A DNA stretch of 64,000 nucleotides from assembly GCF_002797675.1 (NCBI RefSeq), contig NZ_PGEX01000001.1:2480001-2544000 (forward strand). The letters run 5' to 3'. A model generated the notes under the pieces. The model was not told the origin of the DNA. It worked only from the letters and a program-made list of their open reading frames with translations, and ran no database searches. Both the position numbers and the translations under genes were made by a program. The first letter of the stretch is position 1. Every line of letters begins with the position of its first letter. Below are positions 32,392 through 49,737 of the stretch, piece by piece. This stretch comes from Hallerella succinigenes. Its GTDB lineage: Bacteria > Fibrobacterota > Fibrobacteria > Fibrobacterales > Fibrobacteraceae.

Positions 32392-32589
32392 ATGTCTGAT
32401 GTCGCTTTTGCCGATTTTACCGAGCAGGTGCTGTCTCTTTCCTATGAGCAGACTCTTACGCTGATGAGCAAGATGTTGGAATCGTTGAAGACCAAACGGC
32501 GCGAAGAAAATTTCGCCGAATTGGAAAAAGACGTCGCGCGCAGTTCCATGAATTCCATGTGGGATGAATTGAAGAATGACACATGGTGA
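32392..32589 (+). CDS. Addiction-module antitoxin (MazE-like position)
   Basis: 65 residues, mostly helical and charged (EQVLSLSYEQTLTLMSKMLESLKTKR). The sequence resembles the short 'addiction module' proteins preceding MazF or ParE toxins. GGAGGTGCAGT lies just before ATG 32392. It overlaps the toxin gene by 14 bp. Confidence 0.75.
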   Translation: MSDVAFADFTEQVLSLSYEQTLTLMSKMLESLKTKRREENFAELEKDVARSSMNSMWDELKNDTW

Positions 32590-32866
32590 AGTCTGGCTAA
32601 TCGATTTTGGCGACCCAGTTGGCGGCCTTCCGTCCAAGATTCGCCCTGCGGTCGTGATGCAAAATGATCTGCTCGGCATAAAGAATCTGAACACTGTCGT
32701 TGCGATTCCTTTTACTTCGAATCTCGAAAGGGCGGGCCACGAGCCGAACATTCTGTTCCGAAAGGAAGAAACGGGTCTTCCGAAGGATTCAGTTGCGGTT
32801 ATTCACCTTATCGGTGCGGTCAACAAGTTCTGTTTTGACAGAGGAAAAGCCTTATTCGTCAGATAA
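32576..32866 (+). CDS. PemK/MazF-family toxin
   Basis: 96 residues with the MazF opening GEVWLIDFGDPVGGLPSKIRPAVVMQND, the VVAIPFTSNL strand and a catalytic-type Thr/Ser region. PemK/MazF toxins are sequence-specific RNases. Complete, and translationally coupled to the upstream antitoxin, so likely a working pair. Followed 25 bp later by repeat copy G. Confidence 0.88.
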   Translation: MTHGEVWLIDFGDPVGGLPSKIRPAVVMQNDLLGIKNLNTVVAIPFTSNLERAGHEPNILFRKEETGLPKDSVAVIHLIGAVNKFCFDRGKALFVR

Positions 32867-34489: not shown

Positions 34490-35704
34490 TTACGAATCTC
34501 CGCCTTCAGTCAGACCGAATTTCTGGCGGGCCCAAGGTTCCATATAGGGCAGAATTTCCTTGTAAGGCACCACGATCATCACGCTGCCGTGGGAATGCCA
34601 GCCGATTTCGAAAGAGTACCCGTCAAAACCGATACCTTCCTTCCAAAAAGAAGGCTTCAGCTCGAAATCCATGTCGATGGCATCGGCATTGACTTCGTAT
34701 TTTGTCGCATATTTACGAAGAAGCGATACAATCTTTTCCTTTTCTTCTGGATTGAATATTGTGGAATCAACCAGCGAGCCGTCTTTCTTCGAGAAGGTCC
34801 GATGATACTCGTATTTGGATCCTGCGGCGGCACCGGCAGTGTACTCGGCTTTCGAAATATAATAAGTCGTCCACAGCAGTGAATCGAACGCGAAATCTAT
34901 GCTGTCCTGGCGTTCGTATCTGAGAGTGGCGGCGACTTCCGTCCGGGCGCTGTCATAGTACCAGTCATCGGGATAATTCCTGAGTTCGGACTCAATGGAC
35001 CGCTTGTATGCCTCCACCTGACGGTAAAGGGCCCTTTTATGAATTTTTCCTAACTGTCTAGAATCAAGGACCGTGTCGGCATCGGTCAAGTCATCGCCCA
35101 GCAACCCCTTGATGATTTTCCGGTAGACCCATTTAGGATAAACTTGGAACCTCGGCAACTCCCAGTGCAAGGATACCATGTAAAACCTGCTGCTGTCGCG
35201 TTCCGTTCCATAATTGGAGAATTCCATACAGCCCTTCTCTTTTGTGGGGTCGCACTCAATCAATTCGTCGTCATGTATGGCAATCTCCGCCTTGACCCGC
35301 TCCAGATCGCTTTTCCCAATCAGGCTGTATTCCATTTTCATGTCGGCAAGCATGGAATAGACTTTATCCACCTTCTCTTCCAGAACGGACAAGTCCTTGT
35401 CATTTTGAACCTGCAATGCAACTGTCGGTTCCTTTTTGGGGGCATCTGACCGTTCTTTGGAACCGCTTTGGAAAAAAGCAAGCGAGCAGGCAAGTACCGC
35501 GATCACTACCGCGGCAAGGTATGCCGCCGACAAAATCGAACTCACGATTTTCTTTGCCCTGGAGCCCGTTGTTCTCGGCCTGTTCATCATGGCGAGCACG
35601 AACGCCGCCACGGCAAGCGGAAGCAAGAACAGGGACATTCCTCCCCGCGACACAAGGCCAACGAAAAAACCGGCCAAGATAAAAAGGATTTCAAAGAGTG
35701 CCAT
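34490..35704 (-). CDS. Membrane protein with periplasmic domain resembling DUF3298 (RsiV-like)
   Basis: 404 residues. Three N-terminal hydrophobic helices (about 4-20, 24-40, 55-77), then a large soluble part with a coiled segment near 100-125. The end, GYSFEIGWHSHGSVMIVVPYKEILPYME, resembles the DUF3298 C-terminus of RsiV/PdaC proteins; this is a motif-level guess. Last gene of the Hsp70 operon, separated by 103 bp from the previous one, so it may have its own promoter. Confidence 0.55.
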   Translation of the reverse strand: MALFEILFILAGFFVGLVSRGGMSLFLLPLAVAAFVLAMMNRPRTTGSRAKKIVSSILSAAYLAAVVIAVLACSLAFFQSGSKERSDAPKKEPTVALQVQNDKDLSVLEEKVDKVYSMLADMKMEYSLIGKSDLERVKAEIAIHDDELIECDPTKEKGCMEFSNYGTERDSSRFYMVSLHWELPRFQVYPKWVYRKIIKGLLGDDLTDADTVLDSRQLGKIHKRALYRQVEAYKRSIESELRNYPDDWYYDSARTEVAATLRYERQDSIDFAFDSLLWTTYYISKAEYTAGAAAGSKYEYHRTFSKKDGSLVDSTIFNPEEKEKIVSLLRKYATKYEVNADAIDMDFELKPSFWKEGIGFDGYSFEIGWHSHGSVMIVVPYKEILPYMEPWARQKFGLTEGGDS

Positions 35705-35807
35705 ATTCTACTCCATAGTGCATGTCGTCAGCAAATGTCTTTGCGACGAAAGATAGAATGATTCCAAGTCGTTGTATCATGATATTGGCGTTTCAGACTT
35801 CTATTTA

Positions 35808-36365
35808 TTATTGGCGATATTGTAAGTGGAGATGTTCAGTTTGAATGCCTTGGTTTTCCCAACGGATAGTAAAGTAATCGGGCATGGTAGCTTTGAGGAA
35901 CTTGACGATTCGTCTTTTCTCTTTTAGAGGCAGGTCAGCGAGACCTATATCGACAGCACGCCCCCAACGATGAGGAGACCATTTGTCATGCGTATTGAAA
36001 GAATCGTGAGCCGAAGTGATTGTAGGAGAGAAGTCCTGTCCGAAGACTGTTTTGAAAGCTTTTATGACAAATACGAGACCTTTTTCAAGTTCGGGGTCAA
36101 GTTCCATTCGGACGAATTGTTTTTGGAAGGTGTTAGCCATTATGTAGTCATGAGTTTGGCCTGTTTGCATCGGGACATCGTAACTGATGTTGTCGATTGA
36201 AGGTTCATTCTGTTTGGAATCCAGTTCTGCCGACTTATGAGACCAACAGCTGTTAGGGGATTCGGGGCGATATGGGTCGAACACGAGTTTGTAGCCCACA
36301 ACAAGCATGATGAGAATCAAGAAGATTCCGAGGACGATTTTGAACATGTTAACTAGGCATCCCAT
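35808..36365 (-). CDS. Membrane-anchored M15-like peptidase
   Basis: 185 residues: a signal anchor (about 8-27), then a domain with SPHRWGRAVDIG at 130-141, exactly the SxHxxGxAxD zinc pattern of M15 D,D-/L,D-peptidases (H132, D139), and EHLHLQ at 177-182 (E177, H180). M15 enzymes trim peptidoglycan peptides; here the active site appears complete. The start could be ATG 36347 instead. Member of the Hsp70 operon. Confidence 0.7.
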   Translation of the reverse strand: MGCLVNMFKIVLGIFLILIMLVVGYKLVFDPYRPESPNSCWSHKSAELDSKQNEPSIDNISYDVPMQTGQTHDYIMANTFQKQFVRMELDPELEKGLVFVIKAFKTVFGQDFSPTITSAHDSFNTHDKWSPHRWGRAVDIGLADLPLKEKRRIVKFLKATMPDYFTIRWENQGIQTEHLHLQYRQ

Positions 36366-36389
36366 GGTGACAACTCCGTTGTTGTTTGT

Positions 36390-36626
36390 TTATTTTCCAT
36401 ATTGTTCGTCATAGAGGCGTTGCAGAGCCTCCCTGTATTTTGCCTCTCGTTCGGTCTCGATTTTTTGTTTCTGAATATCTTGCGAATGGTCCACATAGGG
36501 GTTATTGTTGTGCCTATGCGCTGCAAGTAAAAGCAAGACGACTGCAAACACGATGATGATAAGCAAGATGATCTGAACAAAGAAATTAGTAATCCTTTCA
36601 AAAATGTTACCGATGAAATCAAACAT
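36390..36626 (-). CDS. Small single-pass membrane protein
   Basis: 78 residues: an amphipathic start, one strong membrane helix (about 16-36), then a charged helical tail rich in E/K/R/Q. No family recognised. Its place between two envelope peptidase genes (24 and 7 bp gaps) suggests a role in the same complex. Confidence 0.6.
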   Translation of the reverse strand: MFDFIGNIFERITNFFVQIILLIIIVFAVVLLLLAAHRHNNNPYVDHSQDIQKQKIETEREAKYREALQRLYDEQYGK

Positions 36627-36633
36627 GGTTATA

Positions 36634-37296
36634 TTATTTGCCCCATTTTAATTGAGCAGACTTAAAATCCTCAAAGGAGTTCAAGATGCTGATTGCACAT
36701 TTTTCGACATTCTTGGTATTTGGATATTCTGCTACACCATTCCTTCTAAGCATGCGAACCACTTCCGTAGACTTCACCAGATTGCTAGTATTCTCTTCCA
36801 TTAGCGATACAGATTTGTTCATTCCGCCAATTCGCCCATTCATGGTAAAATTAGGTCCGCCCGACATCCCAAACTCTATGATTCCGCTTGTGCGATAATA
36901 GCTGTAATTGCCATCATAACGATACTGCATACGAATTCGCATAGGCACAACCGTCAAATTAGGGTTAATGAAAGGCTGAGTGTAGCCATACGAAGTCAGT
37001 TTTTCCCCATTTGGCAATTCATTGTGTTCGAGACTGCATACCATAGGCATTGCAACAGGCTCTTCATCAAGTTTCAAAAGAGCGAGGTCTGACTCCAAAT
37101 CGTAATCAACCATATGAGTCTTGTAGCACGTGTCATTCTTGATATCGTAATAACACTTATGTTCAAAGGTTTCTACCACATGGTATGCAGTGATGATGTA
37201 ATCGCTGTTAACGAAGAACCCGTTTCCGTTACGCATGTCATCTTCGGCAAATGCCACGAAGAAGGAGAGAAGGATGATTCCGATAAGCTGTTTCAT
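36634..37296 (-). CDS. Trypsin-like serine protease, exported
   Basis: 220 residues from ATG 37296, which gives a signal peptide (MKQLIGIILLSFFVAFA). Catalytic triad residues are all visible: His39 (IITAYHVV), Asp70 (ESDLALL), Ser145 (FGMSGGPNF). It lacks a PDZ domain. Likely a periplasmic or secreted protease of the HtrA-like trypsin clan. Starts 2 bp after the upstream pseudoprotease gene ends, so the two are probably made together. Confidence 0.78.
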   Translation of the reverse strand: MKQLIGIILLSFFVAFAEDDMRNGNGFFVNSDYIITAYHVVETFEHKCYYDIKNDTCYKTHMVDYDLESDLALLKLDEEPVAMPMVCSLEHNELPNGEKLTSYGYTQPFINPNLTVVPMRIRMQYRYDGNYSYYRTSGIIEFGMSGGPNFTMNGRIGGMNKSVSLMEENTSNLVKSTEVVRMLRRNGVAEYPNTKNVEKCAISILNSFEDFKSAQLKWGK

Positions 37297-37298
37297 GA

Positions 37299-37961
37299 TT
37301 ATTCTACGGTGACATAGCTTCGGACTTGATACGTGCATTTTGATACATCTGTCGTCGTGTGCTTGTTTTGGTTTCGTATATATTCTGACAGGAGCATACC
37401 GTCATAGAAGAATGATATGTCGGATTTGCGGGTGCTGTTTCCGAAGCTCATTCCGATTACCTTGCCGTGGCTTGAAATTGCCGCACCGCTGAATCCACCA
37501 GGAGTCCTAACGTTCAGGGCCCGTGCTACATATTCGGGGAATGTCGAGTCCGCAACGACTTTAGCTGGGAAAGACTTTATTTGAAGTTTGGAATCTTCCT
37601 GTAGAAATCCTGTTACGGTGACGGGTTCGCCTGTTGTGACCAATCTGTCTTCGATTTTGCATGCGTTGAGCAAGACCTTGTTATCGACCTGGATGATGGC
37701 CATGTTCATGTACTCGTTTTTAGCCCTGTCAAGCACCGTGTCCGCAGAGTGCTCTAATCTGGCGATAATTGGGAGCCCGTTAACCATCACAACAATGGAA
37801 TCCAACTTTTCGGAATGGCGGGCCACATTGCCTGTGGTGACGATATAGTGCTCGTTGAATGCGATGCCTGTGCCGTATACTTTTGTGATTTTATGCTTTC
37901 CTGTTTCGGCGAACAGGAATGTCGCCAAGATGCCGATTATGAGAATGATTGTGTGTTTCAT
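37299..37961 (-). CDS. Trypsin-like pseudoprotease, exported
   Basis: 220 residues with a signal peptide (to about FAETG). Trypsin-fold order is recognisable, but the expected His is Asn45 (VTTGNVARH) and the expected Asp is Asn86 (MNMAIIQV); Ser158 in GGFSGAAI remains. With two of three catalytic residues lost it should not cleave peptide bonds and may act as a sensor, scaffold or inhibitor for the protease next to it. Confidence 0.65.
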   Translation of the reverse strand: MKHTIILIIGILATFLFAETGKHKITKVYGTGIAFNEHYIVTTGNVARHSEKLDSIVVMVNGLPIIARLEHSADTVLDRAKNEYMNMAIIQVDNKVLLNACKIEDRLVTTGEPVTVTGFLQEDSKLQIKSFPAKVVADSTFPEYVARALNVRTPGGFSGAAISSHGKVIGMSFGNSTRKSDISFFYDGMLLSEYIRNQNKHTTTDVSKCTYQVRSYVTVE

Positions 37962-38018
37962 GATGACATCCCGTTGGATTTAGTGTTTGAATTGGAAGTA
38001 TGCGTGGGGGAAGTATTT

Positions 38019-38651
38019 TTATTCGTCTTTTATGCAACGGACATAACGAGCTTCAGCCCTATGGCAATCTTCATCAAGATCCACAGAACTAAACTCGGCT
38101 TTTCCAAAATAGTCGAATATATAAACATATCCGTCCGCATGCCAGAAAGCGGCTCTTTTTCCAAAACCATTAAAAGTTGGATCCACGGTCGCCCAATAGT
38201 CAGCTTCTGCGTATCTCATATCCATAAATAATTCGCAAGCCTCCATTTCACCACCGGGAAACATTCCGAAACCATATTCGTCCGTCCCATTTTTGTTTTC
38301 CTTCCATCCTTTTTTTGTCTTTAGTTTTTCTATCCCTATTTTAGGGCCACCAAGAGCATAGACCAATTTATTCCAGTCTTCGTCAGTCGGAAGCCGCCAT
38401 TTTGCAGGACAAGCATATTTCGCAGCAGAGTGCTTGTAAAGCCTTCCATATTTTTTGCAATTTTCTTCTTTATTATCATAGCAGTACGAATCATCCGTTT
38501 TTAGTTTGAGATTCTCCGCCATCCAGGTCTGTTCACCTATGCTTACCACTCTATACGAGTTTCCATCTGCATCTTTGACGGTTTCTTCACATCCAAGCAA
38601 GATGGATGCAAAAAGAACAAGAAGCGCCAAACTTCTGTTTTTTTGTTTCAT
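38019..38651 (-). CDS. FISUMP-domain lipoprotein (short, no Ser linker)
   Basis: 210 residues: lipobox ILLGC near residue 21, then directly the FISUMP domain: VSIGEQTWMAENLKL, SYCYDNKEENCKKYGRLY, WRLPTDEDWNKLV and ending YVRCIKDE. It has the compact form of the family without the Ser-rich linker of the island copies. The domain is usually found on surface proteins. Operon member. Confidence 0.88.
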   Translation of the reverse strand: MKQKNRSLALLVLFASILLGCEETVKDADGNSYRVVSIGEQTWMAENLKLKTDDSYCYDNKEENCKKYGRLYKHSAAKYACPAKWRLPTDEDWNKLVYALGGPKIGIEKLKTKKGWKENKNGTDEYGFGMFPGGEMEACELFMDMRYAEADYWATVDPTFNGFGKRAAFWHADGYVYIFDYFGKAEFSSVDLDEDCHRAEARYVRCIKDE

Positions 38652-38684
38652 TTTGTTTTTCCCTTTAATTTGTAAAAAAATCTC

Positions 38685-39563
38685 TCAGAGCAAATCGGCG
38701 AACGGGTCACCCCCCACTGTATCTTCATCTGTAAACAAATTATCTAAATCCAAATCACCGAGCGGGTCATCAGCGGTTGATTGTTTTGAAGCAGTCTGTG
38801 GTGCACCCCCATTTTCGTAAAGACGATCCAGATTTTTTTGTGCATCCTGATATCCCTGCGCCGCGGCTTTTTTATACCATTCAATGGCCTTGTTGTAATC
38901 TTGCTTCATCTGTTCATAGGCTCGACCCAATTCATTCTGAGCCTGAGCGAAACCTTGCTCGGCGGATTTTTCCGTCCATTCAAAAGCCTTTTCTAAGTCC
39001 TGCTCAGTCCCCTCGCCCCTTAAATACATGTATGCAAGATAGAGCTGGGCGTCCGCACCACCAGCATAAGCAGCATCTGAATAATAATGGAACGCCGTGT
39101 TGAAATCTTTATGTATTCCATAATCTTCAACCCCACTATAATACATATTTCCCAAAGAAACCATTGCGTCTATGTAGCCTTGATTCGCTGCCATCCTGTA
39201 CCAATGTTCCGATATTTTAGAATCTTGGGTAACGCCCAAGCCTTCTGCGTACATATATCCAAGTCGGCTTTGAGCGGGCGCAAGTCCCTTTTCGGCGGCG
39301 GACACCATGACATCGTAGGCTTCGCCATATTCCTTCTTTTCCATCAAGCAAACGCCTTTATTGAATTCAGCCGCCCGGTTTCCAAGCGCAGCGGCAATGC
39401 TGCTAATGAAGGAACTGTTGTGCGAATAATTGCATTCATAGTCGATGCTGACAATTTTATCGGATGTTCTCAAGACAACCGCTGAAACAACTGCAGTGGC
39501 AAAAAACAGAACCGCTGCAAGCCCCAAGACCAGGGGCACAATAAATCTGTTCTTTTTATTCAT
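38685..39563 (-). CDS. Sel1-repeat protein with signal anchor
   Basis: 292 residues: one N-terminal membrane helix (about 8-30), then about five Sel1-type repeats of 36 residues (A-x-x-G-x-x-x-A-Q-x-x-L-G-x-x-Y pattern, for example APAQSRLGYMYAEG and AQAQNELGRAY), then an Asp-rich tail. Sel1 repeats are protein-binding solenoids frequent in envelope adaptors. Faces the periplasm by topology, so it may be a scaffold in this system. Confidence 0.8.
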   Translation of the reverse strand: MNKKNRFIVPLVLGLAAVLFFATAVVSAVVLRTSDKIVSIDYECNYSHNSSFISSIAAALGNRAAEFNKGVCLMEKKEYGEAYDVMVSAAEKGLAPAQSRLGYMYAEGLGVTQDSKISEHWYRMAANQGYIDAMVSLGNMYYSGVEDYGIHKDFNTAFHYYSDAAYAGGADAQLYLAYMYLRGEGTEQDLEKAFEWTEKSAEQGFAQAQNELGRAYEQMKQDYNKAIEWYKKAAAQGYQDAQKNLDRLYENGGAPQTASKQSTADDPLGDLDLDNLFTDEDTVGGDPFADLL

Positions 39564-39604
39564 TTGTTAATTATCTCCATTTTCTTTAATTTGAAAAAAA
39601 CACA

Positions 39605-41269
39605 TCACCAGAATTTCACTTTCTTCCCGTTTACGAAAAGTCCGTTTCCATTATTTTGTCTGCTATTATCGTAATTCTTGCCTCCAGCATTCCTTTCAGA
39701 CTGCGTACAATTGTCATGGCATCCCACGGCACCGGGCGGGCAGCAGCGTCCTGCCGGCCGGTTCGCCTTTTGTCGCGCAAAACTGTTATCTTGTTGCCTC
39801 GGGCAACCTCGTTCGCCGCCAAATTTCGTGGGGCATTCGTCAAGATAGTCCTGGTTGCAGCCGTTGCCCATGGCTCTCCAAAGTCCCTTCTCTCCAACCC
39901 ACTTGTCACAGAATCCATCGTGGTCCGGATCATAATCGCCATAAGTCTTCTTAACATATTCCCTAAGATGTCGGTCGGCGCATCCCATGGTATTCCCCCT
40001 ACTGTCAGGACACGCGTCGACATAGCCTTCCGTACAAACCATTCCCTTCGCTTCGGCAATAGCGGCCTTTGTCTCGGCTTTAGAGAGGAACGGATTAAAA
40101 TACGTGTAATTCTTGAAAGAGACATTTTCTTTTATTCCAGAGGCTGCTGCATACTCGGCACACCCACCCCATTTATCAAACTCCTCCGAACAGAACCCGT
40201 CCGCATCGCAGTCAAATAACTGCCGTATTTGCAGTTCGATGGTCTCCTTGGCGTCCTTTTTCATCATTGCACGGACTTCTTCCGTGCAGCCGTCGGGACT
40301 TTCGCCTTTAAGGTCTGGACAGAGGTCAAGACCTTCAAAAAGTTCCGAATGTTTCTGGTACATTTCATCATCGTCACAGAAGCCGTCCCGATCGGTATCG
40401 TTATCCATTCTGATTTTCTGTTCCAATGTGCAGCCGTCGTACTTGCCTGGCGTTTTGGGACAAAGATCGTCACCATCGCAAAGGTTACTCATTAGTTGCA
40501 TCTCGTAATCTCCTGTGCAGAATCCATCCCCATCGGAATCGTATTGTTTCAGAAATGCAGCCTTTTTCTGGTTATATTCCTTTTCTTTTCGGGCTTCTTC
40601 AGCGACCCGTTCTTTCTCCCATTTTTCATGTTGAATTTTTCTCTTTTCGACCGCTTTTTGATTTTCTTTTGCTAAAAAATCACGGCAGTCTTCGTCCCCG
40701 GAGCATACTTGCATACCCGAGGAAATTATTCTTGTTATTGAGCAGTTGTTTCCCTTGCAGCTTAAATAACTTGTATAACCGTTCGTCTTTTGTATTACTT
40801 CACAGTTGCCGTTGCTCTTGCATTTTTTTTCATATCCTGAACTTTTTTCATAGATAAGATGCCCATTATCGTCATATCGCTTCTCCCATCCAGGTCCGGT
40901 TTTGGATATGATTTTTCCCCGCTCATTGTACTGTGTGGTGACCATATCCTCTTCTATGTTAACAAATGAGCTACCAAAATCCGGCCAATATTTACAATCG
41001 CCTCCGGCCTCAGAAATTGAAAAAAATCGGTCATTTTTGTATGTCTTCTTGACTATATGACACGGCTGTCCTGTTTTTTCCATATATTGGGTATGATTTT
41101 CATAACGATACTGACCTGAGGCAGTAACGGTTTCCACGATTTTTGGTTTTCCGTCTGGAAATCTTTCTATGACCTTTGCATTTGCTACCACAGACATGAC
41201 CAAAACATGGAAGGCCAGCAACAAAAACAAATGGGCTGTCTTTATTGTTCTTTGCGTGATTTGTTCCAT
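39605..41269 (-). CDS. Exported protein with thrombospondin type 3-like Ca-binding repeats
   Basis: 554 residues. Signal peptide to about residue 32 (FLLLAFHVLVMSVVANA). Middle repeats DSDGDGFCTG, DTDRDGFCDDDEM, DCDADGFCSEEF and DPDHDGFCDKW are acidic Ca-loops spaced about 60 residues apart, each followed by Cys-rich LCP-type segments (SPDGCT, DLCPK). A Lys/Glu helix (about 205-250) separates them from an N-terminal beta-rich part with sequence like GKPKIVETVTASGQYRYEN (MORN/toxin_15-like repeats possible). Likely a large surface or periplasmic protein. Four bases after the upstream FISUMP gene. Confidence 0.7.
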   Translation of the reverse strand: MEQITQRTIKTAHLFLLLAFHVLVMSVVANAKVIERFPDGKPKIVETVTASGQYRYENHTQYMEKTGQPCHIVKKTYKNDRFFSISEAGGDCKYWPDFGSSFVNIEEDMVTTQYNERGKIISKTGPGWEKRYDDNGHLIYEKSSGYEKKCKSNGNCEVIQKTNGYTSYLSCKGNNCSITRIISSGMQVCSGDEDCRDFLAKENQKAVEKRKIQHEKWEKERVAEEARKEKEYNQKKAAFLKQYDSDGDGFCTGDYEMQLMSNLCDGDDLCPKTPGKYDGCTLEQKIRMDNDTDRDGFCDDDEMYQKHSELFEGLDLCPDLKGESPDGCTEEVRAMMKKDAKETIELQIRQLFDCDADGFCSEEFDKWGGCAEYAAASGIKENVSFKNYTYFNPFLSKAETKAAIAEAKGMVCTEGYVDACPDSRGNTMGCADRHLREYVKKTYGDYDPDHDGFCDKWVGEKGLWRAMGNGCNQDYLDECPTKFGGERGCPRQQDNSFARQKANRPAGRCCPPGAVGCHDNCTQSERNAGGKNYDNSRQNNGNGLFVNGKKVKFW

Positions 41270-41273
41270 TTAT

Positions 41274-41828
41274 CTAATCCTGCACACAACGAACCGACTG
41301 CAGCCCATTTTCTGGGAAATCTGTCCAATCCATTACCGTTTGTCCATTAAGACTAAACATTATCGAGCCTTTGGTATCATCGCCTGCATTTCCCGCATCC
41401 GAAGTCCAATAATATGAAAAGCTACCTAGACCATTCCATTCCCCCTTATAGTTTCTTCCTCTCGTCATCATACTCGGCTCTATAGCACTCCAGTCAATAA
41501 CAAGATTATCCAGTAGATTTTTCCATTCTTTCTTATTTGGCAAATGCCAGCCTCTAGGATAAGACACCATAGCCATGGCCCAGGTGTAATAGCGGCCATA
41601 TTTGTCACAATTGGCCTGTTGGTTTTTATAGCAAGCCGAGCCACTGGGTGTTTTCAGATTCTGCAAAGTCCAAACATAATCCCCTATTTTCCGCGTCTTG
41701 TACGCGTTTCCATGAGCGTCGTAGACGACCCCAGTACCGGAATGTTCGTTAGCGTTTGCAATCGCCGTCGTGCAGAGAATAAAAAAGACGAGCAAAATTT
41801 TCTTAATTTCTGTCAGAATATTCTTCAT
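41274..41828 (-). CDS. FISUMP-domain exported protein
   Basis: 184 residues with a cleavable (non-lipoprotein) signal peptide (to about ANANE), then VYDAHGNAYKTRKIGDYVWTLQNL, CDKYGRYYTWAMAM, GWHLPNKKEW and ending GLQSVRCVQD, a full compact FISUMP domain. Overlaps the upstream membrane-protein gene by 26 bp, so the two are translated together. Confidence 0.85.
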   Translation of the reverse strand: MKNILTEIKKILLVFFILCTTAIANANEHSGTGVVYDAHGNAYKTRKIGDYVWTLQNLKTPSGSACYKNQQANCDKYGRYYTWAMAMVSYPRGWHLPNKKEWKNLLDNLVIDWSAIEPSMMTRGRNYKGEWNGLGSFSYYWTSDAGNAGDDTKGSIMFSLNGQTVMDWTDFPENGLQSVRCVQD

Positions 41829-43041
41829 AAGATCCCCTAGATCGTTGATATTGTTCTTCCTGCCTCCTTCTAGACTTTATTGCTACATATTCTCTCTTGA
41901 ATTGATCTAAATTTTTCTGAAAGTTCGGATCGCATTGGGATAAGCGCTTCCAATAAACAAACAACAAATCATAATATTCTTCTTGAGAGAGACCAAAAAT
42001 TTGGGCAATTTCCCTAATTACAAGCTCAGCCCCGTTATACACCTTTTTATAGCGAGGTATTTGCAAAAGGGACTCAACGAAGACGATGGCAAATTGGGAA
42101 TCTTCACTCGTAATACGATGAAGTATTTGAGCGGCTTCTATAATAGGCATTCCGTCTTCAAGCGCGGCAATACATCTATCCTGCATGGCGGATTCTTGAA
42201 AGCCGTTACGCACATAGTAACTGCGAATCACTCTGTAAGCCTCGCAATATTTCCCAGACTTTACAAATTGCGGTTCATTCAAAAATAAAAGCTTTGTGTA
42301 AATCTTAAAAATCAAGCCCTCTTTTTTTCTATCGAAGCCGTCTTCAACAAAAGTCTCGTTGCCGTATTTAATCCTTCCAATCAACGAGCAGATGCCAATG
42401 GATATGATGTTTACTATGGGGACAGGTAAGATGATTGCGCCTAGCCTGGTTAGCGTCGGGTATTTCGACATATAGCAATGGCTATATGTATATACCCACA
42501 AGAGATATACAATCCATGCGCCAATACCAAACGCAAAGAGTCCTGCAATGAATTCTAACACACAAAAGACGGAAAAAATGATATGGATAGCTAAATCGCC
42601 ACCGCTACAAAAACTTGAATTGTCATGAACAAGCGGACCAGATAAAGGTTCTTGTCTAGACGGCTGAACCTGACGTTGCCTTGAAGAAGTTCTCGCGGAA
42701 TTACCATTGGCAGAAGCTTGTGCATTTGAAGCGAGAGTCTTTGCAAAATCGGCAAAAACGTCCTCGGTCTTGGTCGCATAACGCTCTGTAATATTGATAA
42801 AGGAACTCAATTCCACGGCAATCGGTTTTCCCGATAGCCTAGTATTTCGACCTCGTAAAATCTTCAACTGCTTCTTTGTGTTTTCCGCATCAAACATTCC
42901 CTTTTTAAAAACGGAGGCCGCTTCATCAAAAAATTTTTTGATGTTACCGGAAGAACCATTCAGCACGGTCCCATCAGGATCCAACTCGCGAATCCTCGAA
43001 ACATTGCTTTTCCATTTGGCGGCATCAGATTCTATTGACAT
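41803..43041 (-). CDS. Membrane protein with possible TerB/DjlA-like C-terminus
   Basis: 412 residues. An N-terminal helical domain (1-110), a low-complexity Ser/Arg/Gln linker (about 112-135), two or three membrane helices (about 150-220) and a C-terminal all-helical region (about 245-395) with VRNGFQESAMQDRCIAAL and IREIAQIFGLSQEEYYDLLF, which is like the TerB/DjlA helical fold. No J domain (HPD motif) is present. Next to two Hsp70 genes (2 bp gap) a co-chaperone or docking role is plausible but unproved. The TerB assignment is tentative. Confidence 0.5.
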   Translation of the reverse strand: MSIESDAAKWKSNVSRIRELDPDGTVLNGSSGNIKKFFDEAASVFKKGMFDAENTKKQLKILRGRNTRLSGKPIAVELSSFINITERYATKTEDVFADFAKTLASNAQASANGNSARTSSRQRQVQPSRQEPLSGPLVHDNSSFCSGGDLAIHIIFSVFCVLEFIAGLFAFGIGAWIVYLLWVYTYSHCYMSKYPTLTRLGAIILPVPIVNIISIGICSLIGRIKYGNETFVEDGFDRKKEGLIFKIYTKLLFLNEPQFVKSGKYCEAYRVIRSYYVRNGFQESAMQDRCIAALEDGMPIIEAAQILHRITSEDSQFAIVFVESLLQIPRYKKVYNGAELVIREIAQIFGLSQEEYYDLLFVYWKRLSQCDPNFQKNLDQFKREYVAIKSRRRQEEQYQRSRGSYEEYSDRN

Positions 43042-43043
43042 TT

Positions 43044-44612
43044 TTAATTCACCTCCGCTTCAGCAAGAATCTTCTTACACTTTTCCATTTCCTTATCGTC
43101 CTTGACACCAGTGATTTTCAAGCAATACTCCTTAATATCATTGCCCAATTTTCCCCACACATACATTAGACCTTCGGAATCTATCTTGAACACAACTTCC
43201 ACCCTAGTACCGGCGGGCCATTTTTTTGTTAACGGAAGTAGCCCGTCGTCAAGACACTCTGCGCAATCTTGATCGATTATTTTTTCGGTTTCGTTGGACT
43301 CCCATACATCAACCCTTACAGCAGGTTGATTATCGTATACCGTACAAAAAACGCCCCTTCCCTCTGTTGGCAAAGGCGTATTAGCCATAATAAGGTTTTC
43401 TACATTATGGGGAATAATACCTACCCCATAAGACTTACTGGTAACGTTGACAATGGTCGTACTGCACTTGACCATATCGGGACAATCGTCCGTCTCGCCA
43501 TTTTCGAAAGCCTCGATGGCATCTTCGTAGCTCTTGTTCATGGCGAATATGGCCGCACCTTTGGCGACACATTCATCGGGGTCCGTCAAGCGGGCATCGC
43601 AGTTCAAGCGCTTGTCAACAGCGGCCTTCACCTGCGGCATTCGAGACGAACCTCCAACAAGGAGGACCTGATCAAAAGTTTCAACCCCCTTTTTCTTGGA
43701 ATCCTCTATGGTACTTTCGACATAGCTTAACGTCTGTTCCAACAGACCTTCCGTCAGTTCATCGAACTTTTCACGGGTCAACGCTATTCGGGCGGACTTT
43801 CCTTCATATTGGAAATTGACCATCGCCCGTTCCTTGGCGCTCAAACTCTTCTTAGCTTTTTCCGCCTGCAAAAAAAGAGTATTCTTCAAGTGAACATCCG
43901 AATCAAGGCTATATTCAGTCCCGTTAGCTTTATTGAATTCATCCAGCAAGAATTGAGATACCGCCAAGTCCCAATCAGCACCGCCCAAGTGGTGGTCGCC
44001 GCCGGTCACCACGACTTGAATTTTTCCACGGGTTATCTTAATGACAGATACATCGAACGTTCCGCCACCGAGATCGTACACAAGCACCGTCTGCGTCTTG
44101 TCGGTCTTGACTCCGTACGAAATCGCCGCAGCGACAGGCTCGTTGATAATGGCAAGGACATTCAAGCCGGCGGCAATGCCCGCCTGTTTCGTCTGCATGC
44201 GTTCCTTGGTTCCAAAATATGCGGGGCAGGTGATGACAACGTCATTTATGGGTTCAAGCCCTTCGCTTTCGCGGACGCAGTTGGCGTCCTTGACGACCTT
44301 CTTGAGGATAAAGGCTGAAATTTCCGTTGGGTCGTAATGATACGGGAATCGATTATTCAACTTGTCATAACTAGCATCAACGCCAATTTCACGTTTGACA
44401 AAGCAGACCGTCTTCTCGGGTTCCACTTCCAACTGATTCTTTGCCTCTTCCCCAACGATAGCCGTTTTCTCGTCTTCAAAATACACAACTGAAGGCGTCG
44501 TTGCCGCGCCCTCAAAATTGCGCAAAACAACAGCCTGCTCCTGCCCGTCAATCTGGGCCACGCAAGAATAGGTAGTTCCGAGATCTATCCCGAATACATT
44601 TTTTACATTCAT
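43044..44612 (-). CDS. Hsp70-family chaperone, copy 2 of tandem pair
   Basis: 522 residues. Complete nucleotide-binding domain: GIDLGTTYSCVAQID at 9-23, VVITCPAYFG near 129, VYDLGGGTFDVSVI near 183, LLVGGSSRMPQVK near 319. After about residue 395 a substrate-binding beta domain with divergent sequence (GIIPHNVENLIMANTPLP) and then a short tail; the 100-residue alpha lid of DnaK is absent (DnaK is about 640). The cytosolic location follows from no signal. Its first ~390 residues are nearly identical to copy 1 (44622-46190). Operon partner of a membrane GrpE. Confidence 0.9.
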   Translation of the reverse strand: MNVKNVFGIDLGTTYSCVAQIDGQEQAVVLRNFEGAATTPSVVYFEDEKTAIVGEEAKNQLEVEPEKTVCFVKREIGVDASYDKLNNRFPYHYDPTEISAFILKKVVKDANCVRESEGLEPINDVVITCPAYFGTKERMQTKQAGIAAGLNVLAIINEPVAAAISYGVKTDKTQTVLVYDLGGGTFDVSVIKITRGKIQVVVTGGDHHLGGADWDLAVSQFLLDEFNKANGTEYSLDSDVHLKNTLFLQAEKAKKSLSAKERAMVNFQYEGKSARIALTREKFDELTEGLLEQTLSYVESTIEDSKKKGVETFDQVLLVGGSSRMPQVKAAVDKRLNCDARLTDPDECVAKGAAIFAMNKSYEDAIEAFENGETDDCPDMVKCSTTIVNVTSKSYGVGIIPHNVENLIMANTPLPTEGRGVFCTVYDNQPAVRVDVWESNETEKIIDQDCAECLDDGLLPLTKKWPAGTRVEVVFKIDSEGLMYVWGKLGNDIKEYCLKITGVKDDKEMEKCKKILAEAEVN

Positions 44613-44621
44613 GTATTATTC

Positions 44622-46190
44622 CTAATTTACTTCCGCTTCAGCAAGAATCTTCTTACTCGTTTCCATTTCCTTATCGTCCTTGACACCCGTGATTTTCAAA
44701 TTATATTCCTTGACATCATCACCAATCTTGCCCCACACGGACATCAAACCTTCATCGTCAATTCGGACAATCATTTCAATAGGGGTTCCCTTGGGCCAAT
44801 TCCTATTAATCGTCAGCATACCGTCATCAAGGCATTCCGCAAGAGCACGTTTAATTCTCTTTTCTGTTTCATTAGATTCCCACACATCAATAGGAACAGC
44901 AGGTTGGTTGTCCACAGCTGTTACATAATGCCCCCGGCCTTCCGTCGGCAAGGTCGTATTCGCCATAATCAGGTTATCTACTTCATCCTCATTGACACTA
45001 GTTCCATAAGTCTTGCTGGTAACGTTGACAATGGTCGTACTGCACTTGACCATATCGGGACAATCGTCCGTCTCGCCATTTTCAAAGGCCTCGATAGCAT
45101 CTTCGTAGCTCTTGTTCATGGCGAATATGGCAGCCCCCTTGGCGACACATTCATCGGGGTCCGTCAAACGAGCATCGCAGTTCAAACGCTTGTCAACAGC
45201 GGCCTTCACCTGCGGCATTCGAGACGAACCTCCAACAAGGAGGACCTGATCAAAAGTTTCAACCCCCTTTTTCTTGGAATCCTCTATGGTACTTTCGACA
45301 TAGCTTAACGTCTGTTCCAACAGACCTTCCGTCAGTTCATCGAACTTTTCACGGGTCAACGCTATTCGGGCGGACTTTCCTTCATATTGGAAATTGACCA
45401 TCGCACGTTCCTTGGCGCTCAAACTCTTCTTGGCCTTTTCCGCCTGCAAGAGAAGAGTATTCTTCAAGTGAACGTCAGAATCAAGGCTATATTCAGTTCC
45501 GTTTACATTGTTAAACTCATCAAGTAAAAATTGAGATACCGCCAAGTCCCAATCAGCACCGCCCAAGTGGTGGTCGCCGCCGGTCACCACGACTTGAATT
45601 TTTCCACGGGTTATCTTAATGACAGATACATCGAACGTTCCGCCACCGAGATCGTACACAAGCACCGTCTGCGTCTTGTCGGTCTTGACTCCGTACGAAA
45701 TCGCCGCAGCGACAGGCTCGTTGATAATGGCAAGGACATTCAAGCCGGCGGCAATGCCCGCCTGTTTCGTCTGCATGCGTTCCTTGGTTCCAAAATATGC
45801 GGGGCAGGTGATGACAACGTCATTTATGGGTTCAAGCCCTTCGCTTTCGCGGACGCAGTTGGCGTCCTTGACGACCTTCTTGAGGATAAAGGCTGAAATT
45901 TCCGTTGGGTCGTAATGATACGGGAATCGATTATTCAACTTGTCATAACTAGCATCAACGCCAATTTCACGTTTGACAAAGCAGACCGTCTTCTCGGGTT
46001 CCACTTCCAACTGATTCTTTGCCTCTTCCCCAACGATAGCCGTTTTCTCGTCTTCAAAATACACAACTGAAGGCGTCGTTGCCGCGCCCTCAAAGTTGCG
46101 CATGACAACAGCCTGTTCCTGTCTGTCAATCTGGGCAACGCATGAATAGGTGGTTCCGAGATCTATTCCGAATACATTTTTAGAATCCAT
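44622..46190 (-). CDS. Hsp70-family chaperone, copy 1 of tandem pair
   Basis: 522 residues, same length as its neighbour. Nucleotide-binding motifs as in copy 2. Only a few residues differ before ~392; after that the two diverge strongly (TYGTSVNEDEVDNLIMANTTLP here), while the last 25 residues converge again. Tandem duplication with gene conversion over the ATPase part and divergence in the client-binding part is the simplest reading. Begins 2 bp after the GrpE-like gene. Confidence 0.9.
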   Translation of the reverse strand: MDSKNVFGIDLGTTYSCVAQIDRQEQAVVMRNFEGAATTPSVVYFEDEKTAIVGEEAKNQLEVEPEKTVCFVKREIGVDASYDKLNNRFPYHYDPTEISAFILKKVVKDANCVRESEGLEPINDVVITCPAYFGTKERMQTKQAGIAAGLNVLAIINEPVAAAISYGVKTDKTQTVLVYDLGGGTFDVSVIKITRGKIQVVVTGGDHHLGGADWDLAVSQFLLDEFNNVNGTEYSLDSDVHLKNTLLLQAEKAKKSLSAKERAMVNFQYEGKSARIALTREKFDELTEGLLEQTLSYVESTIEDSKKKGVETFDQVLLVGGSSRMPQVKAAVDKRLNCDARLTDPDECVAKGAAIFAMNKSYEDAIEAFENGETDDCPDMVKCSTTIVNVTSKTYGTSVNEDEVDNLIMANTTLPTEGRGHYVTAVDNQPAVPIDVWESNETEKRIKRALAECLDDGMLTINRNWPKGTPIEMIVRIDDEGLMSVWGKIGDDVKEYNLKITGVKDDKEMETSKKILAEAEVN

Positions 46191-46192
46191 TT

Positions 46193-47044
46193 TTAGTCCT
46201 GTTTTTTATAAACTTCTACGCTGCCGACCCTCAGCATGCGAGAGTTGGATACATTGACAAATCCGATTTGCCGGACAGAAGATATCGTTCTGTCCTTGGT
46301 CGCTTTATCGGTCATGATTGTTTTAATGGCCTTGTGTTCTTTTGGATTAAACACGTCGCCGATTTTGGGCTCGACTGGTTCAACATCAAATTCATAAAGC
46401 AAGTCCAAGCTATTCAATTTGATGTCGTTTACGGTTTTCAGAATTTTCGTTGCGGAGATTTCTGATTCCGGCAAGTTTGAATTAACCTTGACAAGGTCTT
46501 CAAGCCTATCATAAATCTGAATAAGACCCATCAAAAGAGGTTTCTTTATCGAATCCGCAAGTCCGTTGCGCAATCCAACCAACTCTTCATGCATTTCGGA
46601 ATTTATCTGCAAAAGCTTTTCTTTTTCTTGAGCAGCCTTTTTCAGTTCCTGCAAGGAAGCATTCATTTTTTGCAGTTCGTCCGAAATGTTCAGTTCTGAT
46701 TTATTTGGTTCAGATTCTCCCGCAGATTCCACAGGCGGCTCCTGTTCTGTCGGAGGTTCGGCAACCTTTACGATGGCACGGCGCCGTGACCGCCACACCC
46801 CTATAATCAGCAGACACACAAAAACAAAGCCCCCCACCGCCAAGGGCATTGGGTTAAAGGAGGACTCTTCATGCACATCCACGCTAGTAGGAGCCGCGAC
46901 GGGGGCGGCTTCGGCAGGAGCGGCTGCGGGAGCAGGGATAGTAGCCGCGGTCTTTGCGGGGGCGGCTGCTGGGGTCTTGGCGGCATCGGCTGCGAAAGCG
47001 ATTGCTGTAGCAAACATGATTGCCATCAGAATCTTCTTCATCAT
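46193..47044 (-). CDS. Membrane-anchored GrpE-like nucleotide-exchange factor
   Basis: 283 residues. An Ala-rich signal-like start and an Ala/Pro segment (19-62), a membrane helix (about 67-88, followed by RSRRR, so N-out, C-in), a coiled coil (about 118-150) and a GrpE head: PLLMGLIQIYDRLEDL, LLYEFDVEPVEPKIGDVFNPKEHKAI and the ending RQIGFV...MLRVGSVEVYKK. GrpE releases ADP from Hsp70. The usual GrpE is soluble; a membrane-tethered version beside two Hsp70 genes indicates chaperone work at the inner membrane. Ribosome site AAAGGAA upstream. Confidence 0.75.
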   Translation of the reverse strand: MMKKILMAIMFATAIAFAADAAKTPAAAPAKTAATIPAPAAAPAEAAPVAAPTSVDVHEESSFNPMPLAVGGFVFVCLLIIGVWRSRRRAIVKVAEPPTEQEPPVESAGESEPNKSELNISDELQKMNASLQELKKAAQEKEKLLQINSEMHEELVGLRNGLADSIKKPLLMGLIQIYDRLEDLVKVNSNLPESEISATKILKTVNDIKLNSLDLLYEFDVEPVEPKIGDVFNPKEHKAIKTIMTDKATKDRTISSVRQIGFVNVSNSRMLRVGSVEVYKKQD

Positions 47045-47214
47045 AGAACACGTTCCTTTGGGTTAAAGAGGGTATTAACCCCTCAAGCCTGAGAATCCGC
47101 GGATGATCAAACTGAAGGGCTTATCTAACTAGAGATGGGATGTTAAATAGGCTTGATGCCGAATAATGATTTCTCTTGAAAACTGGGAGCAGTGCTACAA
47201 GACCCCACCCCTAG

Positions 47215-47236
47215 AATCGAGGATATCTCCTCGATT
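47215..47236. repeat. Nine-bp hairpin between the leader ORF and grpE-like gene
   Basis: AATCGAGGA / TCCTCGATT with a four-base loop. It lies 9 bp after the leader ORF stop in the minus direction but is not followed by a T run there, so it is more likely an attenuator or processing site than a terminator. No gene is seen in the rest of 47045-47244. Confidence 0.35.
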
Positions 47237-47244
47237 TTCCTGAA

Positions 47245-47436
47245 TTAAAGGCTCCGCTGATAAGAGCCTGTATCTGCATCGTAAATTTCTGTACGGCCAT
47301 CTTTTTTGTTTACAGCGACAACATTCCCCTGAACCGTTGCAGAAATTGCGTTGCAACAGACACTGCGTTGATAGCTACCAGTTTGGGCATCATAGAGTTC
47401 AACACGGTCTCCATTCATTTTAACTGCATATATCAT
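47245..47436 (-). CDS. Small two-repeat protein at the head of the Hsp70 operon
   Basis: 63 residues made of two copies of a beta-type repeat: DRVELYDAQTGSYQRSV and RTEIYDADTGSYQRSL. Two beta-propeller-like blades cannot close a propeller, so it may oligomerise. Family not recognised with certainty. AGAGG ribosome site, ATG 47436, and a consensus promoter just upstream, so it is probably expressed. Confidence 0.6.
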   Translation of the reverse strand: MIYAVKMNGDRVELYDAQTGSYQRSVCCNAISATVQGNVVAVNKKDGRTEIYDADTGSYQRSL

Positions 47437-48110: not shown

Positions 48111-48959
48111 ATGCAGAAAACGGAAACCTGGTACAAAGCGGAAGGCGATTGTCCTGCGGAAGATTTTGAACTTGCGAGCTATTTGCTTTTTGAAGCGGGT
48201 GTTGCTTCGCTCGAAGAATTAGACCCGACCGATGACGGGCTTTCGCATTTTTGTTTTTACACGAGCGATCGCTTGGAACGGGACCGCCTTGTACAGCAGT
48301 TTCCGCAGTACCATTTTCGGGTGACGGAAGAACCGGATACGGACTGGGTGCAGGTTTTTCGGGACAGCGCAAAACCGGTGCAGGTAAGCCCTCACCTGTG
48401 GGTGCGTCCGCCTTGGGTCAAATTCACCCCCGAAGATCCGGACGCGGTCGTCCTTGAACTCGAAGCGAAGACCGCTTTTGGAACCGGTGAACACGATACC
48501 ACATGCGGCGTTGCGAATCTGATGGAATTTATCGATTTACAGGGAAAATCGGTTTTGGATATAGGCACAGGCACCGGAATCCTTTCCATGTTCGCCCGTC
48601 GCCGTGGCGCAAAACTCGCTGTCGGAACGGAAATCGACCCGGTAACGCTCCCTTGCATTTCTGAAAATTTTGAACGCAACGGCTTTGAAAAAAGCGACTG
48701 CGTTCTCGGTTATTTGAATGTGTTCCGCCCAGGCGTTCAATTTGACGTGATCGTCTGTAACATGTTTTTGCGCGAATTTTTACCGATGCGCGAACAGGTG
48801 GTACAGCTTTTGGCTCGGGGCGGTAAGCTCGTTCTTGCTGGACTTCTTTTGACCGAAAAGGAATTTGTCCTTCAATGGTTCAAAGATGTCGGTTTGAGGA
48901 TGGAACGGGAATATTCAAGTCGTGAATGGTGGAGCGTTTTAGGCGCTATTCGCACTTAA
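48111..48959 (+). CDS. prmA: Ribosomal protein L11 methyltransferase PrmA
   Basis: 282 residues: an L11-binding N-terminal part with WVQVFRDSAKPVQVSPHLWVRPPW, then a class I methyltransferase with AFGTGEHDTT near 124 and LDIGTGTGILSM near 147, both diagnostic of PrmA. It methylates L11 on Lys and the N-terminus with SAM. The stop overlaps the convergent thioredoxin gene by 14 bp. Confidence 0.92.
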   Translation: MQKTETWYKAEGDCPAEDFELASYLLFEAGVASLEELDPTDDGLSHFCFYTSDRLERDRLVQQFPQYHFRVTEEPDTDWVQVFRDSAKPVQVSPHLWVRPPWVKFTPEDPDAVVLELEAKTAFGTGEHDTTCGVANLMEFIDLQGKSVLDIGTGTGILSMFARRRGAKLAVGTEIDPVTLPCISENFERNGFEKSDCVLGYLNVFRPGVQFDVIVCNMFLREFLPMREQVVQLLARGGKLVLAGLLLTEKEFVLQWFKDVGLRMEREYSSREWWSVLGAIRT

Positions 48960-49737
48960 AGCCTTGGAGCTCAAGACCCGCTTTCATTTCGCTGTAGTTG
49001 GAAGTTCTCTTCATGTCCATGGCGCGCATAAAGCGACTGTTGTTCGCAGTGTGCAACTTGAAGCCCGTTTTGGTTTCTGTGACTTCCGACTTTCCGCTGG
49101 CTTTGAACTTTTCCATGATCTGCGGTTTGGGCTCTTCGAGTTCCGGCGGAATCAGCACGTCGGTCACAATGTCTACATCGTCGATCTGCGTTTTGCCGAA
49201 GACAAAAGAAATCGTGATGTGATTCTTGAGCCCGCTGAACTCTCCATCGATGGAGCAGGAAAGGTTCTTCTTTTTCGGAGGCTTGTACTGGGTCACTTTT
49301 TTGACGTTCTTCGCCGGAGTGTATTCCAAGGCTTTTAACAGTTCGTCTTCTTTCATCGCGCCCATCTTCATGTTGATAATCTTGCCATCTCTTAAGAAGT
49401 AGAAGGTGGGGAAAGCTTGAATGCGGAAGGTATTCTTGATCTTTTCAATATTCGGTTCGTCGAAACCGATCGATGCGACTTTAATGTCGGTATAGTTCTT
49501 TGCAATATCGATGAGCGTCGGAATCATGATGAGGCACGGAGGGCAGCTCGTCGAAGAGATTTCGAGAATGATCGGCTGCTTCGAATTCATGATTTCCTTT
49601 TCAAAGTTATCGTCGTTGATTTTGACGATGCGGATGTCTTCGTCGTTAGAGGCTTTTGCGAGGGCGGTGGTGAAGGAGCCGAGGATCAGAGTCAGCAAAA
49701 GTACAGAAACAAACGAAAATTTTCTTTCAAATTTCAT
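48946..49737 (-). CDS. Periplasmic thioredoxin-like protein with extra C-terminal domain
   Basis: 263 residues. Signal peptide to about residue 28, then a thioredoxin fold with C65-P-P-C68 (SSTSCPPCLIM) and the cis-Pro in FRIQAFPTFYF near 112. A second half of about 100 residues (YKPPKKKNLSCSIDGEF onwards) with beta character is unrecognised and contains two Cys. The CPPC motif is found in some TlpA-like reductases. The 3' ends of this gene and prmA overlap tail to tail. Confidence 0.82.
   Translation of the reverse strand: MKFERKFSFVSVLLLTLILGSFTTALAKASNDEDIRIVKINDDNFEKEIMNSKQPIILEISSTSCPPCLIMIPTLIDIAKNYTDIKVASIGFDEPNIEKIKNTFRIQAFPTFYFLRDGKIINMKMGAMKEDELLKALEYTPAKNVKKVTQYKPPKKKNLSCSIDGEFSGLKNHITISFVFGKTQIDDVDIVTDVLIPPELEEPKPQIMEKFKASGKSEVTETKTGFKLHTANNSRFMRAMDMKRTSNYSEMKAGLELQGFKCE

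Follow-up and report, generated by a model that had tools for sequence, protein, structure and literature searches.

Why does a bacterium keep two Hsp70s and a GrpE of their own in the same run of genes as a series of exported envelope proteins and proteases? This question is raised by a locus of Hallerella succinigenes, which lies in the 64,000-nucleotide stretch of DNA analysed here (the window; positions 2480001-2544000 of the 3.13-Mb single-contig genome), to which all coordinates refer unless another locus is named. Thirteen minus-strand genes, identified by reading of the open reading frames (ORFs) from 47044 down to 34490, encode a membrane-anchored GrpE, two lidless Hsp70s, a 412-residue membrane protein and nine further products, which are referred to below as the envelope cassette. 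Judged from sequence comparison, the unit is a composite, in which a widespread GrpE-lidless Hsp70 module has been joined to an envelope cassette that recurs elsewhere without Hsp70. The answer that we tentatively favour, with a probability of about 0.45, is that the operon encodes a horizontally acquired Hsp70 switch, docked at the inner membrane and joined to this cassette, which most likely guards the envelope against phages or competitors, a function that we infer from the genes and their relatives.

The gaps between successive genes are, from 5' to 3', 2, 9, 2, -26, 4, 41, 33, 57, 2, 7, 24 and 103 bp. An earlier note on this DNA had given the same gene order, coordinates and gap sizes, all of which were reproduced exactly, and a single transcript is plausible from the spacing. 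The count of 13 genes includes a 78-residue membrane ORF and places the start of the protease at 37296. The span of 34490-47436 given in that note stands for the 13 genes as far as 47044; an additional ORF of 63 residues, a possible first gene, begins at position 47436.

The lidless Hsp70 pair

Hsp70 A (44622-46190, minus strand; PF00012, 364 bits) and Hsp70 B (43044-44612, minus strand; PF00012, 366 bits) each comprise 522 residues. In an alignment with the 636-residue DnaK of the same genome, both end after the beta part of the substrate-binding domain (SBD-beta), in agreement with their previous description as lidless. The GIDLGTT, KR, NEPxAAA and GGGTFD motifs, which we take to be those of the actin-like nucleotide-binding domain (NBD) of Hsp70s, are conserved between the pair and DnaK. 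The VLLLDV linker is missing from both; the same pattern matched seven of the nine ordinary DnaKs tried. Neither protein carries a signal sequence, and both should therefore be cytosolic.

The simplest explanation for such genes would be a second heat-shock DnaK/GrpE set from which the lid has been lost, and the Hsp70 and GrpE families are indeed intact. The pair is, however, only about 39% identical to the DnaK of its own genome, and its scores of 352 and 362 bits against the DnaK equivalog of NCBIfam are far under the cut-off of 648. In addition to the loss of the linker motif, the pair falls among the lidless Hsp70s, away from DnaK, in a tree of 42 sequences, where its branch is long. This tree holds 42 of 87 sequences, about one in five of the Verrucomicrobia having been retained, and has many long branches, so that some joins may be false and the exact place of the pair is unsure. 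An ordinary stress duplicate is thus very improbable. Compared with the housekeeping DnaK/DnaJ/GrpE system, the NBD motifs and the GrpE family are shared, whereas the lid, the VLLLDV linker and an adjoining DnaJ gene are missing and the GrpE is a membrane protein.

The two Hsp70s have near-identical motor parts and different SBD-beta parts. Over residues 1-385, 1115 of 1155 bases are identical, compared with 289 of 411 over residues 386-522, and uninterrupted identical runs of 566, 218 and 68 bp are found between the two genes. Synonymous divergence (dS) is 0.14 for residues 1-385 and 0 for residues 41-220, where no difference occurs at all. For residues 386-500, dS is saturated and nonsynonymous divergence (dN) is 0.27. 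Because identical NBD runs stand beside a saturated SBD, the simple reading is an old divergence with repeated gene conversion of the motor, which would have yielded one motor with two grips. In DnaK paralogues, functional divergence has been located in the NBD and SBD-beta (PMC11019930).

The membrane-anchored GrpE

The first of the 13 genes (46193-47044, minus strand) encodes a GrpE of 283 residues. The GrpE domain, at residues 120-280, scores 55.2 bits against PF01025 (Pfam cut-off 25.8), whereas its NCBIfam equivalog matches reach no more than 24 bits, far under cut-offs of 152-266. The protein has a signal-peptide-like N-terminus, an Ala/Pro linker and a single strong hydrophobic segment at residues 66-84, with a hydropathy peak of 2.38, followed by RSRRR. 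Given the position of RSRRR after this transmembrane (TM) segment, the GrpE domain should face the cytoplasm. The membrane GrpE proposed earlier is thus a member of the GrpE family according to Pfam, with one TM segment according to hydropathy.

Distribution of the module and related systems

The query for a scan for related modules was an alignment of Hsp70 A, Hsp70 B and their relative in genome G082, and the scan rests on two peptide patterns. The best 80 of 88 relatives were kept, which correspond to 79 distinct loci, a lower bound that includes the query's own G082 row (L071). According to their titles, 63 of these loci belong to Verrucomicrobiota and one to the 'PVC group'; the other 15 come from Bacteroidota, Bacillota, Actinomycetota, Pseudomonadota, Thermodesulfobacteriota, Planctomycetota, Fibrobacterota, one record titled Myxococcota, and unnamed bacteria. 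On this sequence evidence, the combination of GrpE and a lidless Hsp70 is widespread, with loci in about nine phyla. An Hsp70 of more than 480 residues was readable in 71 of the 79 loci, the remaining eight being truncated, frameshifted or without the start motif; all 71 are 498-562 residues long and none has a VLLLDV-type linker.

The neighbours were counted as the longest ORF just upstream (77 loci) and just downstream (68 loci). The upstream ORF is a GrpE in 63 cases, while the downstream ORF encodes an FGE-sulfatase domain in 49 cases, another Hsp70 in five and a VWA domain in four. The verrucomicrobial operons, mostly from Chthoniobacterales, resemble the one described here in the order GrpE-lidless Hsp70-partner, with the partner often only a few bases on. 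In contrast, they have a single Hsp70, a GrpE without a clear TM segment, and an FGE-sulfatase-domain partner without a predicted TM segment. The partners in Desulfonema (L073) and Chitinispirillia (L071) carry a predicted TM segment behind their J-like part. In Desulfonema magnum (L073), the GrpE is fused to a PAS domain and the J-like partner to a TM segment and Lcl_C, which suggests a sensing role. Another tandem arrangement is seen in a member of the Desulfobacterales (L070), where two lidless-type Hsp70s are each followed by a similar-looking short protein. A PilZ match was obtained for one of the 77 upstream ORFs, at L070 or at another locus.

Among 167 genomes of the phylum, Hsp70 relatives at E 1e-78 were found in two, H. 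succinigenes itself and G082. In G034, an assembly with 5% contamination, a further contig with a GrpE-like protein, a lidless Hsp70 and a J-like protein was recognised by eye and had been missed at this threshold. When 91 stretches carrying related modules were searched, the window GrpE matched 18 at E 1e-3 (the Hsp70s were not searched again), and no other gene of the window, the 412-residue protein included, had a match. Lack of conservation of the gene order was one half of the condition under which the earlier note would give up its proposal, and the order GrpE-Hsp70-Hsp70-membrane protein was indeed found only here.

The earlier note knew of no named system with this content, a statement that needs to be amended. 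The HSP70/GrpE theme of the GAP1-N2 GTPase-centred conflict systems (theme 2 in Kaur et al. 2020, PMC7159879) combines GrpE and Hsp70 with a partner fused to DnaJ or TPR; some members have a second Hsp70, and the authors predicted a role near the membrane for GAP1-N2 systems. One of our loci (L065) is such an operon with a lidless Hsp70: it encodes GrpE, a lidless Hsp70, an Hsp70-VWA protein, a J-like protein (by eye), a DO-GTPase and GAP1-N2/GAP1-M (Pfam). Compared with these systems, the operon described here has neither a DO-GTPase nor GAP1 nor a DnaJ-FNIII protein; its GrpE is anchored, its two Hsp70s share one NBD, and an envelope cassette stands in place of the GTPase set. Repeats of the Sel1/TPR type are found here in a separate membrane-anchored protein, and no DnaJ-FNIII or TPR partner was found in the operon. 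A search of the open-access literature found no description of this gene set, no paper on a membrane-anchored GrpE, and no experiment on the lidless, linker-lost, GrpE-paired Hsp70 family. With the terms tried, PMC3079729 yielded no statement about either FISUMP or chaperones.

Probable acquisition within a species-specific island

The whole operon is held by a 35.5-kb island (12618-48093) between a ParE-like gene and prmA, which is absent from the sister species G003. Collinearity with G003 in blastn ends at 12617 and resumes at 48094, and about 4.3 kb of other genes are found there instead. The Hsp70 module thus appears, from its presence in a species-specific island, to be horizontally acquired. 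The closest Hsp70 start found, with 67% identity over about 170 residues, is on an IMG/VR contig, where a GrpE-like gene (30% identical to the window GrpE, E 3e-18) and, by eye, mobilisation-type genes adjoin it; this Hsp70 ends after 170 residues, and a transposase-like gene (by eye) follows some 3.4 kb on.

Viral contigs carry Hsp70 matches at six loci, two of which were read: L188, and L185, which was discarded as a relative since it reads as an ordinary full-length DnaK. Gene 13, the last gene of the operon, had no match on viral contigs. Carriage by plasmids was considered and dropped: 260 records matched, all below 60% identity, and the three opened are loci of the usual dnaK type, in two of which dnaK, grpE and a J protein are annotated, while the third is unannotated and reads alike. 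Of phage records, 38 matched, again all below 60%.

The 412-residue membrane protein

The fourth gene (41803-43041, minus strand) encodes a protein of 412 residues with three hydrophobic segments within residues 144-221, according to hydropathy. It had previously been called TerB-like, an assignment for which we found no support. No Pfam family matched, even at E 10, neither TerB nor a J domain; the AlphaFold model, built from a two-row alignment, reached a pTM of 0.32; Foldseek returned no significant fold match in the PDB; and a profile comparison (hhalign) with the J-like partners of related modules was negative. Besides the protein itself, one partial match was found among 100 genomes. In G046, the first part of a DnaJ-domain protein is 30% identical to its C-terminal helical region over 132 residues (tblastn). 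The G046 protein ends in a DnaJ domain (PF00226, 37.9 bits) from which the HPD motif is missing. The 412-residue protein is a natural candidate for a partner or dock of the Hsp70s.

The G046 protein, and a DUF805-plus-J protein with an HPD motif encoded in an island of G047, may be compared with the DjlA-type membrane J-proteins. The G046 relative has a C-terminal J domain without HPD and the G047 protein a J domain with it, whereas the window protein has no J domain and the TerB assignment failed. The genome of H. succinigenes holds a single Pfam J domain, in a gene adjoining DnaK, and hence either the housekeeping DnaJ serves the Hsp70 pair or the pair works without a J protein.

Relatives of the cassette in other islands

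Gene 13 (34490-35704, minus strand) encodes a membrane protein of 404 residues and serves as a marker of the envelope islands. It was searched in 84 genomes, including that of H. succinigenes (62 + 22). Full-length homologues with 80-85% identity occur in G031, G045, G046, G047 and G055; G054 has one with 71% identity, and G002 and G041 contain fragments; many other matches cover the first 60-80 residues only. Several other members of the cassette lie close by: the M15-like peptidase in G031, G045 and G054 (a fragment in G047), the pseudoprotease in G031, the repeat protein and the Sel1 protein in G047, and a FISUMP in G046. At E 1e-10, the protease is present in three of 100 genomes (its own, G031 and G045). 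Within 16-19 kb around gene 13 in G031, G045, G046, G047, G054 and G055, no match to the window Hsp70s or GrpE was found. The idea that the 13 genes form one conserved machine is not supported: the cassette occurs without Hsp70, and Hsp70s this close are confined to the two phylum genomes mentioned above.

These findings bear on two competing explanations. The first is that the pair is a dedicated export chaperone, SecB-like in effect, which keeps the exported cassette proteins unfolded and passes them to the translocon, with no role in conflict. By hydropathy, eight of the nine downstream products contain a strong hydrophobic segment, either N-terminal or of membrane type; the start of the ninth, the protease, looks signal-like by eye. 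An anchored GrpE would also put the ATPases at the membrane, and two different SBDs fit several clients. Nevertheless, the presence of cassette genes without Hsp70 or GrpE matches in the islands of six other genomes argues that their export does not need the Hsp70 pair. Moreover, relatives of the module are linked to GTPase/GAP1 or FGE-domain proteins, with none of the cassette beside them. We consider an export chaperone rather unlikely.

The second explanation is that an insertion hotspot received a mobile GrpE-Hsp70 module, which came to lie upstream of an envelope cassette unrelated to it, with no functional tie between them. A species-specific island of 35.5 kb with many unrelated genes would favour such a chance joining, as would the occurrence of each part without the other, the cassette without Hsp70/GrpE in the six genomes and the modules without the cassette in the 91 stretches. 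On the other hand, the spacing is tight, with a 26-bp overlap across the border between module and cassette, and the distribution of J-domain genes is not readily accommodated. In a search of 12 genomes, 11 had a strong dnaJ-type match and one, G055 (92% complete), had none; further J genes over the cut-off were found in G046, G047 and G048, and a weak one, under the cut-off, in G053. The sole non-dnaJ J genes of G046 and G047 sit less than 2 kb from gene 13, which speaks against pure chance. Islands of this kind thus attract chaperone parts, although four of the six carry none. We consider an accidental neighbourhood about as unlikely as an export chaperone, and more probable than a stress duplicate.

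The extra J genes of G048 and G053 were rejected as an island link: they are not near gene 13, which has no match in these genomes at E 1e-10. The G048 gene (L177, 8766-11248) encodes a coiled-coil J-domain protein with HPD present, beside vWA-like and AAA ATPase-like genes, and by eye resembles a MoxR-vWA conflict system. The gene-13 islands of G045, G055 and G054 (L164, L166 and L167) encode large 'FNGDISxWDVSxVTxM' repeat proteins, BspA/DUF285-like by eye. An insertion hotspot is suggested by G031, G045 and G055, in all of which a shared spermidine-synthase-like gene (by eye) lies not far from gene 13. The M15-like protein of G031 (L064, 4696-5412) and the FISUMP of G046 (L042, 7557-8456) have a similar N-terminal membrane segment and linker and different C-terminal domains; they are 41% identical over 136 residues (tblastn), as in modular surface proteins.

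Possible function of the composite

The earlier idea that a pair of chaperone ATPases and a dedicated, membrane-anchored exchange factor stand beside exported partners is borne out, and J genes near gene 13 in G046 and G047 go with it. In the envelope-guarding switch that we favour, the anchored GrpE and the 412-residue protein would hold both soluble Hsp70s at the inner membrane. As both share one motor surface, a single GrpE could recharge them, while the two lidless grips would bind different partners, weakly and reversibly. In line with what has been proposed for the related conflict systems, the ATP cycle would then serve mainly for switching and less for folding in general. This switch might hold envelope proteins of the cassette or sense a disturbed client, and could be coupled to the protease/pseudoprotease and to the peptidoglycan-type peptidase, so as to guard the envelope in conflict with phages or competitors. 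Lidless Hsp70 grips suit quick, weak binding. This, together with relatives in predicted conflict systems and the location in a variable island, is why such a switch is preferred to an export chaperone. DnaJ itself reportedly features in a paper on phage sensing by bNACHT25.

Several observations weigh against this interpretation. No other upstream GrpE of the related modules has a convincing membrane helix: four of the 77 upstream ORFs contain a segment of at least 1.6, and these four do not read like GrpEs with an anchor. For most related partners, 'J-like' is a judgement by eye, the best Pfam DnaJ match having an E-value of 0.0013 (L077). Neither the 412-residue protein nor any cassette protein was matched in the 91 related-module stretches, and the J domain of the G046 relative lacks HPD. 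The 16-19 kb around gene 13 in G031, G045, G054 and G055 show no match to Hsp70, GrpE or the 412-residue protein, and no J domain. The island encodes at least seven FISUMPs, and with such abundance the presence of one nearby carries little weight. Pfam detected neither a DO-GTPase nor GAP1 nor a J domain in the 14 proteins of the operon (elsewhere, the island was scanned in part). Finally, PADLOC 2.0, applied to 10 of the 14, gave weak or trypsin-fold matches only: the Hsp70s at E 0.003-0.005, the Sel1 protein against QatB at E 8e-4, and the protease against RT-Protease_XI, LmuA, Avs1b and others. The protease matches are read as the shared trypsin fold, and no named PADLOC defence system was assigned to the operon.

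A bolder version of the proposal would be a mobile two-headed Hsp70 device, in which a gene-converted motor with two diverged lidless grips is recharged by a membrane GrpE and has no J gene of its own, and which gates a cascade of protease/pseudoprotease and peptidoglycan peptidase as an envelope alarm or defence in Fibrobacterota, while mobile elements of other bacteria would carry a related form; we regard this as doubtful. Most work on Hsp70s has dealt with DnaK-type proteins, which have the lid and the linker, and the family considered here, without lid or VLLLDV linker and with its own GrpE, spans many phyla. With its single motor and two grips, the tandem pair lends itself to asking if lidless Hsp70s work as switches and if the choice of partner is set by SBD-beta alone. 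Through the anchored GrpE, Hsp70s would act at the inner membrane of bacteria and, if the link to the cassette is true, the predicted chaperone-based conflict systems would gain a concrete envelope output.

Genes of the cassette and other genes of the island

The cassette starts with a FISUMP protein with a signal segment (41274-41828, minus strand as are all genes of the cassette; TIGR02145, 95.7 bits; PF09603), whose gene overlaps that of the 412-residue protein by 26 bp. We dropped the idea that the two form a split J-lectin fusion, comparable to the J-like-TM-Lcl_C protein of L073 or to the verrucomicrobial FGE partners, because FISUMPs fill the island. The next product is an Asp/Cys-rich repeat protein of 554 residues with a signal segment (39605-41269), to which homologues in the G047 island are 76% identical. 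Of its previous designation as a Ca-repeat protein, the repeats stand and the assignment to calcium is weak (EF-hand, E 0.025; MORN_2, E 0.048; both weak Pfam matches). It is followed by a membrane-anchored Sel1-repeat protein (38685-39563; PF08238, 114 bits), with a 41% homologue in the G047 island, and by a second FISUMP (38019-38651; PF09603, 80.7 bits), a probable lipoprotein with an LLGC motif by eye, which a lipobox pattern search did not match. The two FISUMPs and the Sel1 protein had been named as such before, and Pfam and NCBIfam agree.

The same holds for the protease and pseudoprotease. The trypsin-fold pseudoprotease (37299-37961) matches PF13365 at E 1.3e-4 and 23.2 bits, under the cut-off of 27.6. 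Its catalytic His is replaced (TTGN), and is also absent from both pseudo copies of G031 (alignment, by eye). The trypsin-like protease (36634-37296; PF13365, 56.1 bits) has the His, the Asp and the GMSGGP serine by eye. The 78-residue product (36390-36626) is a single-TM protein with a hydropathy of 3.47. For the membrane-anchored M15/VanY-like peptidase candidate (35808-36365), the earlier M15-like label receives weak backing from Pfam (PF13539, E 0.027, under the cut-off), and an SxHxxGxAxD...HxH pattern, which we take to be the M15-type motif, is visible in the product.

The ORF of 63 residues (47245-47436, minus strand), 200 bp upstream of grpE, encodes a protein with an internal repeat like that of Helicobacter pylori IceA2, with a match to PF05862 at E 5.1e-5 and 23.6 bits, slightly under the Pfam cut-off of 25. 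It was found in one of 21 genomes, its own. A promoter-like site with 10 of 12 consensus positions (47479-47450) lies directly before it; consensus promoter sites are at chance level (22 versus 22.2 in shuffles), as are consensus terminators (17 versus 14.0, standard deviation 4.5).

Elsewhere in the island, at least five further FISUMPs are encoded on the plus strand (at 14391, 17557, 20522, 22072 and 30787). They are interleaved in an odd alternation with ATPase genes, namely ATPase_2 at 19080 and 33106 and DUF4143 at 24743 (plus strand) and an AAA-PD-(D/E)XK gene at 15744 (minus strand). A MazF/PemK-like toxin gene (32576-32866; PF02452, 50 bits) lies near the 3' side of the operon. Between prmA and an ACT-like gene, a thioredoxin-like gene with a signal-like start (48946-49737) is present, where two sister species have none.

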